Origin: Eubacteriales bacterium
GTDB taxonomy: Bacteria > Bacillota > Clostridia > Christensenellales > Aristaeellaceae
Direction: 5' to 3'
Length of the DNA stretch: 64,000 nucleotides
Assembly (NCBI GenBank): GCA_028705775.1
Contig: JAQWCW010000009.1
Coordinates: forward strand, 1-64,000
Shown here: piece after piece, positions 29,709 to 34,810 of the stretch
Position numbering within the stretch: position 1 is the first letter of the stretch
Layout: each line of letters opens with the position of its first letter
The notes under the pieces: generated by a model
The model's input: only the letters and a program-made list of their open reading frames with translations
The model's database searches: none
What the model was told of the DNA's origin: nothing
Made by a program: the position numbers and the translations under genes

Positions 29709-31373
29709 TCAAATCTCCACGATAATCGGCAGAACCATCGGGCTGCGCTTCATCTTCTCATATATATAGCGATGCAGCTCTTCCTTGACGCGGTTCTTGA
29801 TAGCCTGCCAGTCCGTGCCCTCGATATGTCCGTAGGACGCGATGATGTTGCGAACCTGAATGCGGGTATTTTCCATAAGGTCCTCATTTTCACGCACATA
29901 TACAAAGCCGCGCGATATAATGTCCGGCCCGCTTACAAGCGCGCCCTGCGCTTTATCGATTGCCATTACAACGATGATAAGACCGTCCTGAGAGAGCAGC
30001 TTCCTGTCCCTGAGAACCACGTTTCCGACATCGCCGATTCCGAGACCGTCTACAAGCACGCTGCCGGTAGGAACAATCTCCGTAACGTGCATTCCGCCGT
30101 TTTTGGATATTTCGATTGCCTCGCCGATTTCGGGAATGTGGACGTTTTCAGGGGGCATTCCGAGGCTTTCGGCAAGCTGAGCGTGAATCCAGAGATGGCG
30201 GTATTCGCCGTGGACGGGGATGAAATATTTAGGCTTTACAAGCGTGTGAATCAGCTTGATTTCTTCCTGACACGCGTGACCGGAAACGTGAACCTCGGCA
30301 AGCCCGTCATAAATAACGTTCGCGCCGCAGCGGTAGAGCTGATTTATAACTCTTGACACGAATTTCTCGTTGCCGGGGATAGGCGTCGCGGAAATCATTA
30401 CTGTGTCGGTTGAACGAATTTGGAGCTTGCGATGCTCGGAGAACGCCATGCGCGTAAGTCCGCTCATCGGTTCGCCCTGACTTCCCGTCGTAAGCACGAG
30501 CAGCTGGTCGTCGCGAAGCCTGTCAATATCGTCGATATCAACGATGTTTTCTTCGGGAATTTTCAGCTCGCCCAGAAGCATTGCAACCTTGCTGACGTTG
30601 ACCATGCTTCTGCCTACAAAGCAGACTTTTCTGCCATAGTTCGTTCCGCAGTCAACAACCTGCTGAATTCTGTGAATATTGGAGGCGAACATTGCTATCA
30701 TTATTCTGCCGGTTGCGCTTCTGAAAAGATTGTTAAAGGTATCGCCTATCTTCCGCTCGCTCATCGTGTAGCCCTTGCGCTCAACGTTCGTGCTTTCGCA
30801 TAAGAGCGCGAGAACTCCCTTGGCGCCGATTTCTGCAAACGAATGAAGGTCGGTAACCTCGCCGTCTATCGGCGTGTAGTCAATCTTGAAATCGCCCGTT
30901 ACGACAATCGTTCCCGCAGGGCAGGTTATAGCAAGCGCGCAGGCTCCGGCGATGGAGTGGCTCACCTTGATAAACCTGATGGTAAACGCGCCGAGCGTTA
31001 TAACATCGTGAGGGCGAACCGTTGTGAGCGGAATATTGGGAACTCTGTGCTCCTTGAGCTTCAGCTCAACAAGCGCCATTGTAAGGCGCGTGCCGTAGAG
31101 CGGAGCAGGAACCTGCTTGAGAATATACGGAGTTGCGCCGATGTGGTCCTCATGGCCATGCGTTATAACATAGCCGCGAACCCTGTCCGCGTTCTTTACA
31201 AGATAAGAGACATCCGGAATTACAAGGTCGATTCCAAGCATATCTTCCTTTGGAAATATAGAGCCGCAATCAACAACGATGATATCGTTCTCATACTCAA
31301 TCACCGTCATGTTCTTGCCGATTTCATCTACGCCGCCCAGCGGTATAATTCTGATTTTCTTTGAAATAGCCAC
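29709..31373 (-). CDS. rnj: Ribonuclease J
   Basis: Metallo-beta-lactamase/beta-CASP nuclease with 5'-exonuclease and endonuclease activity in mRNA decay and rRNA maturation. The 554-residue product has the metal-binding THGHEDHIGATPYIL, VSHSIAGACA, TGDFKIDYTPIDG, the beta-CASP part with GSQGEPMSGLTRMA and HVSGHACQEEIKLI, and a C-terminal domain ending MVLPIIVEI. The start is a GTG at 31373 with AAAGGGG upstream. It is transcribed from a promoter over 200 bases upstream through a structured leader (31479-31580). It is a single-gene unit closed by its own terminator. Confidence 0.97.
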   Translation of the reverse strand: MAISKKIRIIPLGGVDEIGKNMTVIEYENDIIVVDCGSIFPKEDMLGIDLVIPDVSYLVKNADRVRGYVITHGHEDHIGATPYILKQVPAPLYGTRLTMALVELKLKEHRVPNIPLTTVRPHDVITLGAFTIRFIKVSHSIAGACALAITCPAGTIVVTGDFKIDYTPIDGEVTDLHSFAEIGAKGVLALLCESTNVERKGYTMSERKIGDTFNNLFRSATGRIMIAMFASNIHRIQQVVDCGTNYGRKVCFVGRSMVNVSKVAMLLGELKIPEENIVDIDDIDRLRDDQLLVLTTGSQGEPMSGLTRMAFSEHRKLQIRSTDTVMISATPIPGNEKFVSRVINQLYRCGANVIYDGLAEVHVSGHACQEEIKLIHTLVKPKYFIPVHGEYRHLWIHAQLAESLGMPPENVHIPEIGEAIEISKNGGMHVTEIVPTGSVLVDGLGIGDVGNVVLRDRKLLSQDGLIIVVMAIDKAQGALVSGPDIISRGFVYVRENEDLMENTRIQVRNIIASYGHIEGTDWQAIKNRVKEELHRYIYEKMKRSPMVLPIIVEI

Positions 31374-31478
31374 GTAATGACCCCTTTCGTGTGGTGAATT
31401 CTTTATGCATTACAATCCGCACACTTTATACGTCTATACCATAAACGTAAACAAGCGCGGAATAACTACGCAATTAAT

Positions 31479-31580
31479 AATACGAGAACAGCGATTATCA
31501 TAAAAAGCGGCAACATCAGCCGCCATTACGGATAATGATTTTCGAGCTAAGACTCGTATTCTGTTTTGATGAATTACGAG
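31479..31580 (-). promoter_or_regulatory. Structured 5' leader of rnj
   Basis: The rnj promoter predicts a leader of about 219 nt. In the minus-strand RNA: helix P1 pairs 31580-31571 with 31561-31553 (CTCGTAATTC with GAATACGAG, one bulge). Two back-to-back hairpins follow, CATTA-TCCG-TAATG (31537-31524) and GCGGC-TGATGTT-GCCGC (31523-31507), the second followed by five U like a terminator. AATACGAG in the 3' arm of P1 (31560-31553) is also perfectly complementary to CTCGTATT at 31486-31479, so P1 and a long-range helix enclosing both hairpins are mutually exclusive. No other gene is seen in 31374-31662. Confidence 0.55.
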
Positions 31581-31598
31581 ACATTCTGTATCATTTGC

Positions 31599-31627
31599 AT
31601 TGTAGCACAAATAATACCTTCGTTCAA
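31599..31627 (-). promoter_or_regulatory. Promoter for rnj
   Basis: Minus strand: -35 TTGAAC (31622-31627), 17-base spacer, -10 TACAAT (31599-31604). The predicted transcript start is near 31592, about 219 bases ahead of the rnj start codon. Confidence 0.75.
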
Positions 31628-31662: not shown

Positions 31663-32097
31663 TTAATCACGCGCCGCGCCGGTGCATTCGTCGGAAAGCT
31701 CGCCCTCGTGGATTCCGACAATTTCGGCGCGCCATTTGCCGCTCCCGCGCCTTTTTTTCTCCGTGAGCAAAAGCACAAGATAGGAAACAGCAAGCATCAG
31801 AAATGCGCAGAGAGCGATTATAAGCTCATTGTTCGGGAAAAGAACATATCCCAAAGCAAGACCGGCAAGCAGCATGGAAAGCGGAAACACATACGAAAGC
31901 ACGCTTGCCGCCGCAATTTTACCGTCGGTAAGCTTCACGTCAAGAAGCTCCCCTATGGGATAATTGCCGCTGAGCAGCAGCGAGAATTCACGCTGGCTTT
32001 TCGGACACATTCCGCACTTCCCGCACGCGGTCGGGCGGCTGAACTTAATAAGCACGGAATCATTTTCACTTTTTATAACTTCTCCCGTGCGAATCAT
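31663..32097 (-). CDS. RseC/MucC-family (SoxR-reducing type) membrane protein
   Basis: 144-residue protein: a soluble N-terminal part MIRTGEVIKSENDSVLIKF with four Cys (TACGKCGMCPKSQ plus neighbours, a possible metal or redox site), then two membrane helices (VLSYVFPLSMLLAGLALGYV and LIIALCAFLMLAVSYLVLLL) and a basic, then acidic tail. This is the RseC_MucC pattern. The open frame reaches 32142, but the ATG at 32097 has GGAGAAGG upstream. In many Firmicutes such a gene lies near Rnf complexes; here it follows spoIIIAH and has its own promoter. Function here is unknown. Confidence 0.85.
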   Translation of the reverse strand: MIRTGEVIKSENDSVLIKFSRPTACGKCGMCPKSQREFSLLLSGNYPIGELLDVKLTDGKIAAASVLSYVFPLSMLLAGLALGYVLFPNNELIIALCAFLMLAVSYLVLLLTEKKRRGSGKWRAEIVGIHEGELSDECTGAARD

Positions 32098-32130
32098 TTG
32101 TCTGCACCTTCTCCTTATCAAACATAGATT

Positions 32131-32159
32131 ATTATAACACAAGGATTATTGTTTGAAAA
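32131..32159 (-). promoter_or_regulatory. Promoter for the RseC-like gene
   Basis: Minus strand: -10 TATAAT (32131-32136), 17-base spacer, weak -35 TTTTCA (32154-32159). It lies between the spoIIIAH stop and the RseC-like start, so that gene need not belong to the sporulation operon. Confidence 0.5.
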
Positions 32160-32166
32160 CGTTTTT

Positions 32167-32649
32167 TTATATAAACTCAGCATAAATGATTGACTGTTTT
32201 TCAAGCGGAATACCTGTCGCCTCGTATAAGGAATACGAAAGTTTCGCGGCGTCCTCCTCATTTTGTACGCCTTTTTTGATAAAAACGCTCAGGCTGCCGT
32301 TCTCGACTGCCGCCGCTCCCTTGAGCGAAAAGCTTTCAAGCACGCCTTCCGCATACCATACAAGCTCCATGTTTTTTGATAGCCGCACCATTTCCTCTGC
32401 TGCCAAATCCCGCGTTTCCTGAGACAAAAGCGCGTCGCACGCCGCTTTTTCAAGCTGCGCAAGAGCTGCGCGGAAATTATCGTTCCTCTCCGCGCGGTAA
32501 TCCTGATAGGTCTTTGGCGCAAACGCCTCTGCCGTCTTTGCACTTGAGCCGAAACCCGAGAGCAGCATATACGCCGAAAGGATTACAAGGCAGAGCGCAA
32601 TACCGCACCTGAGCTTATTTCCCGCCGCTTCCATAAATCTTGCCGTCAC
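32167..32649 (-). CDS. spoIIIAH: Stage III sporulation protein AH
   Basis: Mother-cell membrane protein whose extracellular part forms a ring and contacts SpoIIQ of the forespore in the feeding-tube complex. The 160-residue protein has one N-terminal membrane helix (CGIALCLVILSAYMLLSGF) and a C-terminal ring-building (YscJ/FliF-like) domain with MVRLSKNMELVWYAEGVLES and GSLSVFIKKGVQNEEDAAKL. It is shorter than the Bacillus protein (about 218) but normal for Clostridia. The GTG at 32649 overlaps spoIIIAG; an ATG five codons later is also possible. Confidence 0.9.
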   Translation of the reverse strand: MTARFMEAAGNKLRCGIALCLVILSAYMLLSGFGSSAKTAEAFAPKTYQDYRAERNDNFRAALAQLEKAACDALLSQETRDLAAEEMVRLSKNMELVWYAEGVLESFSLKGAAAVENGSLSVFIKKGVQNEEDAAKLSYSLYEATGIPLEKQSIIYAEFI

Positions 32650-32995
32650 CGCCCATTACATAGATTTCAACCGCTTCATAGGGAAGCGAGCAAAGCACCT
32701 GCACGGCTCGCCTCAGCTTCAACGAAACGCCGATATCCGCCGCTCCCTCGGCAACCACAACCGCGCCGACTGCCCTTTGATTGGATGAAAGAGCGTACTC
32801 GCCCCCGTCCTCCGCGCTTATGTACACCTCTACCCTGCCCGCTCCATCAATTTTGCTGAGCAGCGCGGCGATTTCATTAACTCCGTTTACATCAGGCGAT
32901 ACTCGTGCTATCAGCGATATGAGCAGCGAAACGATAAGCAGCACGGCGGCAAGCACGCCGCCCCTTAATGATTTCAGCTTATCTATCAGCTTCAC
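32615..32995 (-). CDS. spoIIIAG: Stage III sporulation protein AG
   Basis: Forms a large ring in the intermembrane space of the engulfed forespore. The product, about 126 residues, starts KLIDKLKSLRGG, has one membrane helix (VLAAVLLIVSLLISLIA) and a ring-building domain with RVEVYISAEDGGEYALSSNQ, GAVVVAEGAADIGVSLKLRR and AVQVLCSLPYEAVEIYVM, the strongest signature of the family. The open frame runs up to 33028; I chose the GTG at 32995 (GGTGA 5 bases upstream) because it gives the family start. It is shorter than Bacillus SpoIIIAG (about 229) and lacks that protein's long insertion. Confidence 0.88.
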   Translation of the reverse strand: MKLIDKLKSLRGGVLAAVLLIVSLLISLIARVSPDVNGVNEIAALLSKIDGAGRVEVYISAEDGGEYALSSNQRAVGAVVVAEGAADIGVSLKLRRAVQVLCSLPYEAVEIYVMGGDGKIYGSGGK

Positions 32996-33287
32996 TTTCT
33001 TCACCGCCGTCCAGCTTCGTTTCGGCAAGCTCCTTCAAGCCTCCGAGCACGCTGTCGTTCCTTTCTTCATATGTGCTGCCGTTTTCGTTTATTACATCGC
33101 GCCCTTGCGCAAAGATATTCGCACGAAACCCCTCCATCATATCGAAAAAACCAGTGACCATGATACAGTAGATAATCATCGCCACAATAAACCGCGCCGT
33201 TTTTCTGATTTTCCCTTCCGGCAGAAGCATTTCCGCAATTGAATACCCGACGCCGAGCGCCGCAAGCAGCTTAAACAGATTCTCCAT
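32979..33287 (-). CDS. spoIIIAF: Stage III sporulation protein AF (short form)
   Basis: 102-residue protein with two N-terminal membrane helices (FKLLAALGVGYSIAEMLLP and TARFIVAMIIYCIMVTGFFD) and a charged tail ending EESEADR. The N-terminal pattern (hairpin with LLPEGKIRKTARFI) fits SpoIIIAF, and the position between AE and AG fixes the assignment. Bacillus SpoIIIAF is about 206 residues with a C-terminal ring-building domain; that domain is missing here. There is no downstream frame that would restore it, so this seems to be a natural short form rather than a frameshift. Confidence 0.82.
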   Translation of the reverse strand: MENLFKLLAALGVGYSIAEMLLPEGKIRKTARFIVAMIIYCIMVTGFFDMMEGFRANIFAQGRDVINENGSTYEERNDSVLGGLKELAETKLDGGEESEADR

Positions 33288-33293
33288 AAAACC

Positions 33294-34427
33294 TCACGAA
33301 ACGCCCGCTCCGAGCGTCATCGAAGCCATAACCTGCGCAAGCAGCATAATGAACATCGCAAGCGTTCCAAGCTCCAATAAAAAGAGCATCGAAAGCACCT
33401 TCCCAAAGCCGTCCAGCATCTTTATCGGCGCTTCATCGGCAATCGGCTCAAGAAGCGCCGCCGAGGCAGTATAAAGCAATGCCGCTCCCGCCGTTTGAAG
33501 TATCGGCCCTATACATACGAGTAGCAGAAGGACTATTCCCATAACGCCGATTCCGTTCTTGATTAACAGGACAGAGCCGAGAATGGTTTCAAGCGTTTCC
33601 GAAAGCATTCCGCCTATTACCGGCACGAACTGGTCGATTGTATACTTAGCGCCGCGCAGCATTACGCCGTCCAGGGAAGCGCCGGTAAGCCCGCTGATAG
33701 CTGTAACGCCCATGAACACGGTTACTGCCATTCCGAGCGTCCATGCGGCGGCGTTCCTCAGCAGAGCGCACAGGCGCGTCAATGAAAAACGAGGACTCAC
33801 GCTTCCCGCAACCGAAAGCATTGCGGCTCCGCTTACGAGCGGAAGCGAAACGTGGGTTATAATCGCCGTCATGCTTCCGCACGCCGCAACCAAAGCGGGC
33901 TTCAGAAGCGAGGATGAGTTGACGGAGCCAACCGCGCTCATGATAGTCAGCATGACGGGGAAAATCGACTGCATACAGCTTGACAGGTTTCCTACTGTTT
34001 CATAACAAAGTGAAAGCATACCTGCAATATTTGACGACAGGATAAGCGAAGTTATGAAAAGGATTGTAAGGCGCACGGGAGTACGCATTCGCGTAAGCCT
34101 TCCGCTGTTTTCCGTTCCGGTAAGAAGCGAATAAAGGACAATCGGCGCAAGCGCGGAAAGAAGCGCTGCGGCGCTTCCTGAAATTGATGAAAATAAAAGC
34201 TCAAAGATTTTTGACAGAAGCGCATTTCCGTCAATCGTAAGCTCGCCCTTGGCTATTCCGATGAGCGTTTCGCCGAAATCCCTGTCAGGCATCAGCTCCT
34301 CGCTCCATTTTCTTGCCTCGTCAAGCTCCGCGTTTTCAATAACCGCCGAAAGAACCTCGTCGCTGCCCGCCATTGCTTGCGCGGGCAGAATCAGAAACAG
34401 AAGGATGACGGCAAGGAAGCGCTTCAT
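33294..34427 (-). CDS. spoIIIAE: Stage III sporulation protein AE
   Basis: Polytopic membrane protein of the SpoIIIA complex. The 377-residue product has a signal-like N-terminus (RFLAVILLFLILPAQAMAGS) and at least six membrane segments from about residue 80, including LSALAPIVLYSLLTG, LFITSLILSSNIAGMLSLCY and VMGIVLLLLVCIGPILQTAG, and the family motif TIDQFVPVIGGMLSETLETI. It overlaps spoIIIAD (ATGA). Confidence 0.95.
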   Translation of the reverse strand: MKRFLAVILLFLILPAQAMAGSDEVLSAVIENAELDEARKWSEELMPDRDFGETLIGIAKGELTIDGNALLSKIFELLFSSISGSAAALLSALAPIVLYSLLTGTENSGRLTRMRTPVRLTILFITSLILSSNIAGMLSLCYETVGNLSSCMQSIFPVMLTIMSAVGSVNSSSLLKPALVAACGSMTAIITHVSLPLVSGAAMLSVAGSVSPRFSLTRLCALLRNAAAWTLGMAVTVFMGVTAISGLTGASLDGVMLRGAKYTIDQFVPVIGGMLSETLETILGSVLLIKNGIGVMGIVLLLLVCIGPILQTAGAALLYTASAALLEPIADEAPIKMLDGFGKVLSMLFLLELGTLAMFIMLLAQVMASMTLGAGVS

Positions 34428-34810
34428 GCCATTTTCTCCGTTATAAGCGAAATCATCGACGCAATTACAGGCAGGGAAAGCGATATAAGGAGAGCCTTTC
34501 CGGCAAGCGTTACCTTTGATGCGAGAAGCGGAAGCCCTGCTTCCTCGCAGCTTTCAGCCGCGAACTCAACAATGTATGCGCTTCCGATTACCTTCAGGGT
34601 CAGCGCGATATGCTCGCCCTTTACTCCCGCGGATTTCATGACGGATGAAAACCAGCCGGCGATATTCAGATACTCCGAGGCGAACAGCATGAACAATATT
34701 GCGCCGCATGAAAAGGAAACAAGCAGGGCGAAAGACGGGCTGTGTTCCCTTGTGATTGTGCATAAAATAACCGCTGCAAGAGCAAACCCGCATACCTGAA
34801 AAGCGCTCAT
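34424..34810 (-). CDS. spoIIIAD: Stage III sporulation protein AD
   Basis: 128-residue membrane protein with four hydrophobic segments (FQVCGFALAAVILCTITRE, FALLVSFSCGAILFMLFAS, LTLKVIGSAYIVEFAAESCE and LISLSLPVIASMISLITEK). The pattern KVIGSAYIVEFAAESCEEAG is characteristic of the family. It starts on the last bases of spoIIIAC and ends on the first bases of spoIIIAE. Confidence 0.95.
   Translation of the reverse strand: MSAFQVCGFALAAVILCTITREHSPSFALLVSFSCGAILFMLFASEYLNIAGWFSSVMKSAGVKGEHIALTLKVIGSAYIVEFAAESCEEAGLPLLASKVTLAGKALLISLSLPVIASMISLITEKMA

Follow-up and report, generated by a model that had tools for sequence, protein, structure and literature searches.

Does the leader of an RNase J gene regulate that gene, and if so, does it act as a switch between two competing helices? 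The question arose from an earlier note on the 64,000-nt stretch of Eubacteriales DNA analyzed here (the window), which proposed that the RNA upstream of rnj can alternate between a local helix, P1, and a long-range helix enclosing a terminator-like hairpin. Our analysis suggests that this region is probably an ordinary but long (~219 nt) 5' UTR of a single-copy rnj with its own extended -10 promoter, moderately folded and fast-evolving, which may serve RNase-dependent control of rnj mRNA lifetime. The gene, its leader, and its upstream neighbor are arranged as follows.

29709..31373 (-), rnj, encoding an RNase J family ribonuclease of 554 aa, GTG start
31374..31592 (-), 5' leader of rnj, ~219 nt, its start inferred at 7 nt downstream of the -10
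31381..31388 (-), Shine-Dalgarno (SD) region GAAAGGGG of rnj
31599..31627 (-), predicted rnj promoter TTGAAC-17-TACAAT with TG (extended -10), the top-scoring site upstream of rnj
31663..32142 (-), rseC-like gene (RseC_MucC) upstream of rnj, directly after spoIIIA genes

The rnj product matched TIGR00649 with 611 bits, together with RNase_J_b_CASP and RNase_J_C, and judged by these profiles it is a genuine RNase J. It was the single match above the cut-off in its own genome, and no rnj relatives were found in the viral contigs searched. Downstream (3') of rnj the gene order is ylbF, mltG, and a U32 gene. On the upstream side, the minus strand from 31663 to 34810 carries spoIIIAD-AH followed directly by the RseC/MucC-family gene and then by rnj, and several relatives likewise have a short RseC-like gene close to rnj. 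Read-through from the rseC-like gene into rnj is possible. The TTGAAC-17-TACAAT site had the top promoter score between rseC and rnj; the transcript start at ~31592 was placed from the promoter position, and the leader length was counted to the GTG at 31373. These results bear out the earlier description of a clear promoter followed by a leader of about 219 nt.

The length of this leader is shared by rnj genes elsewhere in the host's family. We surveyed ~135 distinct rnj upstream regions of the family, 71% of which (n = 96) had a strong predicted promoter, compared with 5.5% of shuffled sequences, and 99% of the strong calls were TG-extended. The predicted leader was at least 90 nt long in 94 of these 96 regions (98%), with a median of 144.5 nt and none below 60 nt, the window's 219 nt ranking at the 82nd percentile. 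Nine genes taken as controls from these loci had a median leader of 40 nt, with at least 90 nt in two of the nine, a contrast that is an indication rather than a measured rate because of the small control set and the relatedness of the genomes. There is thus an indication that a long leader is a trait of rnj across this bacterial family, which places a long leader (219 nt predicted in the window) family-wide on the gene of a major mRNA-decay ribonuclease. The promoter, the leader, the identity of rnj, and the family-wide leader length are all established at the level of sequence.

The leader is predicted to fold into a 5' domain, in which a central hairpin accompanies P1, and a strong hairpin on the 3' side, which the earlier note did not mention. 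The elements are listed in the direction of transcription.

31553..31580 (-), P1 hairpin CTCGTA/TACGAG, 6 bp with a 16-nt loop (31580-31575 paired with 31558-31553), by folding
31524..31537 (-), CATTA-UCCG-TAATG hairpin, by folding, an alternative to the longer hairpin at 31494..31536
31502..31524 (-), terminator-like hairpin GGCGGC(7)GCCGCT followed by U5, stem ~-10 kcal/mol, by folding
31494..31536 (-), longer imperfect hairpin ATTATC..GATAAT in the MFE fold, which takes in the terminator-like stem and leaves some of the U-tract base-paired
31479..31486 (-), distal segment CTCGTATT, able to pair with the P1 3' arm AATACGAG and positioned downstream of the U-tract
31416..31461 (-), strong 3' hairpin UCCGCGC..UACGUUUAU-GGU-AUAGACGUA..GUGCGGA, by folding (z = -2.7 for 31460-31400)

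P1 was found where it had been described (31580-31553), with a predicted pair probability of 0.87-0.91 before the distal segment is transcribed. The distal CTCGTATT (31486-31479) does form a perfect 8-bp pairing with AATACGAG (31560-31553), as claimed. Of the two directly stacked hairpins that had been described, the one with the UCCG loop and the one followed by U5 are both present; however, they are not fully separate, because G31524 is common to both. Once 31494 has been transcribed, the MFE fold prefers a single hairpin (31536-31494) to the two smaller ones.

Overall, the leader folds only slightly better than chance. Its folding z was -1.6, with 12 of 200 shuffles equally good, and a separate estimate from 40 shuffles gave -2.4, so that the figure is noisy; a z of -1.6 was also reached by 20% of tiles of 219 nt placed at random in the window. 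P1 together with its 8-nt competitor occurred in 0.9% of shuffles of the leader and a comparable terminator-like hairpin in 0.35%, but both values overstate the surprise because the two definitions were set after the sequence had been seen. Across the family, the mean folding z was -1.17 for rnj leaders and -1.58 for the long leaders, compared with -0.37 for rnj coding segments. The family's rnj leaders thus beat shuffled sequences somewhat and the coding segments hardly do so, which was counted in favor of the long-leader explanation.

The window's genus is represented by a single genome, and in the rnj protein tree the window stands alone on a long branch next to two clades (fork support 82, drawn open). 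A blastn search of the leader against 308 genomes of the host's family returned no convincing or alignable relative. The matches obtained were marginal, 18-32 nt long, and were treated as chance; the one whose surroundings were read, in L003, was not in rnj. Given that no alignable relative was found among these 308 genomes, the structure of the window leader may not be under selection. The window had no Rfam match, further search of the leader gave only chance matches, and none was found in 20 relatives. The earlier statement that no known riboswitch could be recognized is therefore upheld, there being no Rfam match above the gathering score.

A terminator hairpin with its U-tract (GGCGGC-7-GCCGCT + U5) does lie inside the rnj leader, and it could serve for transcription attenuation. 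Part of the rnj transcripts would then stop at ~31502, yielding a leader RNA of ~90 nt, and the choice between P1 and the long-range pairing would not be the regulator; any control would have another source, such as a protein or the rate of transcription. The stem of ~-10 kcal/mol with five U, the scarcity of comparable hairpins in leader shuffles (0.35%, subject to the caveat above), and a predicted hairpin probability of 0.85-0.89 at the moment of decision are all consistent with this reading. However, we saw no upstream segment fit to serve as an antiterminator, the competing distal segment comes after the U-tract, and the hairpin itself just forms the apex of a longer one. Furthermore, a terminator-like hairpin was present in just one of 110 other rnj leaders (two of 111 including the window). 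We therefore consider attenuation unlikely. The intrinsic transcription attenuators of Bacillota resemble the window leader in having a G+C-rich stem and U5 inside a leader, but the window leader has no antiterminator and its competing segment follows the U-tract. The sole other carrier found, the distant relative L075, has a strong terminator-like hairpin, TGCGCCTGCGTCTGCGGGCGCA-GTTTTTC, ~217 nt before rnj.

Alternatively, the hairpin at 31524-31502 could be the terminator of the spoIIIA/rseC operon upstream, or of a small RNA that starts at 31592, with the main rnj promoter located further downstream, for example at TATTAT (31482-31477). The end of rseC at 31663, the lack of any other terminator-like site between rseC and rnj, and the promoter position ~110-140 nt before rnj in many relatives point this way. 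However, this -10 candidate is weak, scoring 10.0 compared with 13.5, and is without the TG that 99% of the strong family promoter calls have, which makes this arrangement quite unlikely.

The proposed switch fared worse. The two pairings are indeed mutually exclusive and nearly isoenergetic, and the long-range helix does enclose the terminator-like hairpin. In the two states, the whole leader had energies of -53.8 and -54.9 kcal/mol and the 5' domain had -28.6 and -28.2 kcal/mol, the alternative pairings thus differing by no more than ~1-3 kcal/mol. What did not hold is a regulatory effect, as neither termination nor exposure of the SD was affected. When the polymerase arrives at the U-tract (31502), P1 and the hairpin are all that can have formed; the distal segment (31486-31479) follows 16 nt further on, its arm has not yet been made at the moment of decision, and the switch therefore cannot decide termination. 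Both pairings are compatible with the terminator-like hairpin, which the long-range helix merely encloses, and in the window leader we found no alternative pairing that is available before the U-tract and would block the terminator. With 30-100 nt of coding sequence included, the unpaired probability of the SD GAAAGGGG was nearly identical in the two states. A role for the freed P1 5' arm as an anti-SD appeared in the leader-only fold and was gone once 30-100 nt of coding sequence was added. A distal arm that locks the 5' end of the RNA against RNase J was rejected as well, because this pairing was no better than in shuffled leaders (p = 0.32) and was lost with coding sequence. None of the three outputs checked (termination, SD access, and 5'-end locking) was thus found. 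The arrangement occurred in two of 111 rnj leaders including the window, and the other carrier is unrelated. A true conformational switch, such as P1 against the long-range helix, that senses RNase J or a ligand would fit the near-equal energies of the two states and the rarity of the exclusive arrangement in shuffles (0.9%, again a value chosen with hindsight), but on these results it is very unlikely. That the exclusivity regulates rnj is not supported, and the specific switch as proposed is a poor starting point.

A leader peptide is scarcely credible: a 22-codon frame from the ATG at 31584, whose stop lies inside the terminator loop, and a hydrophobic 11-codon frame from the ATG at 31501 both exist, but neither has a Shine-Dalgarno sequence, for which reason both were rejected, the first ATG is ~8 nt from the inferred start, and no homologue was found by which codon constraint could be judged. 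The hydrophobic frame (MIIAVLVLLIA, 31501-31466, minus strand) directly follows the U-tract and is probably due to chance.

We thus return to the long leader as a site of RNase-dependent control. The competition between P1 and the long-range helix would be a by-product of the repeated CTCGTA and would by itself control neither termination nor translation. The leader may instead expose or hide cleavage and 5'-entry sites, as the rny and rne leaders do, and RNase Y or RNase J would thereby adjust the lifetime of the rnj mRNA. This last step taken alone, RNase-dependent control of rnj through the leader, is an inference that we hold to be less likely than not. Autoregulation of RNase J via its leader is a plausible and reasonable idea, helped by the long rnj leaders predicted across the family. 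In the literature searched, where most subscription journals lay outside coverage, we found no account of RNase J being controlled by way of its own leader.

Several ribonuclease genes provide precedents. In Bacillus subtilis, RNase Y autoregulates via cleavages in its ORF and its 164-nt 5' UTR, and RNase J1 trims the RNA from the cut sites; control is strongest in the first ~100 nt of the ORF (PMC10303841). The rny and window leaders are alike in being long (164 nt and ~219 nt) and in preceding the gene of a key mRNA-decay enzyme in Bacillota. However, cleavage and a response to enzyme level were shown for rny, whereas the gene in the window encodes a different enzyme, RNase J. In E. coli, rne, pnp, and rnc are subject to feedback through their own mRNAs (reviewed in PMC3997798), and the rne leader mediates RNase E autoregulation (Schuck et al. 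2009, as cited in PMC7283877). The rne leader as described there resembles that of the window in being the structured leader of a ribonuclease gene, but the enzyme is different, and the window has neither an Rfam match nor a demonstrated binding hairpin.

More broadly, RNase J synthesis in the host's family of Clostridia might be controlled via long, lineage-specific rnj leaders as a counterpart of the rne and rny feedback, the window being one fast-evolving leader and two sister genera having a dedicated element at the transcript start; we regard this wider proposal as somewhat doubtful. The element in question is conserved over ~45 nt at the predicted rnj transcript start in the sister genera g13 and g14, with the consensus TGTTAnATGGGATCGTTnGCC...CGACAAATnCATTCCC. 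We described it with a sequence-only model of 49 positions (R1), the search with which gave the following loci.

L129:213-256, L120:277-320, L040:1566-1611, and 13 other loci, g13/g14 element

Of 300 family genomes, 13 had an R1 match, one in each; all of these genomes belong to g13 or g14, and every match lies inside an rnj leader. Among 396 genomes drawn from the order, R1 matched in no genus other than g13. The element was found only before rnj and is not in Rfam. Its specificity for rnj and its position at the transcript start in two sister genera were counted in favor of the long-leader explanation. No base pairs were supported within it, and it may therefore function either in the RNA or as promoter-adjacent DNA. 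A GGGA/UCCC basal stem was rejected, since a slid register scored equally well and shuffles reached the same score. The window belongs to the same family, and the comparison likewise concerns the rnj transcript start, but its leader had no R1 match up to E = 10 with filters off. A likeness noticed by eye (GATACAG..TCGT..CGAAAATCATTATCC) was accordingly not accepted as homology.

Should rnj leaders prove to be feedback sites, then RNase J, the main 5'-to-3' exonuclease in many Bacillota, would be seen to govern its own abundance in the way known for RNase E and RNase Y. Concrete targets for pursuing this idea are the long leaders predicted across the family and the 45-nt element that the two genera have only before rnj.

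Other rnj leaders of the family also have sequences in common, and alignments of the g24-group and clade B leaders yielded no supported consensus structure. The leaders of genus g24 (L134-L149) begin with a different common sequence, GAACGAAAGGTGTTGCCG, and in some of them a distal CTTCGTTT could pair with ACGAAAG. In the clade B leaders (L005-L032), AGATTGG recurs close to the predicted start, and a motif resembling AATA(C/G)GA is found midway along the leader.
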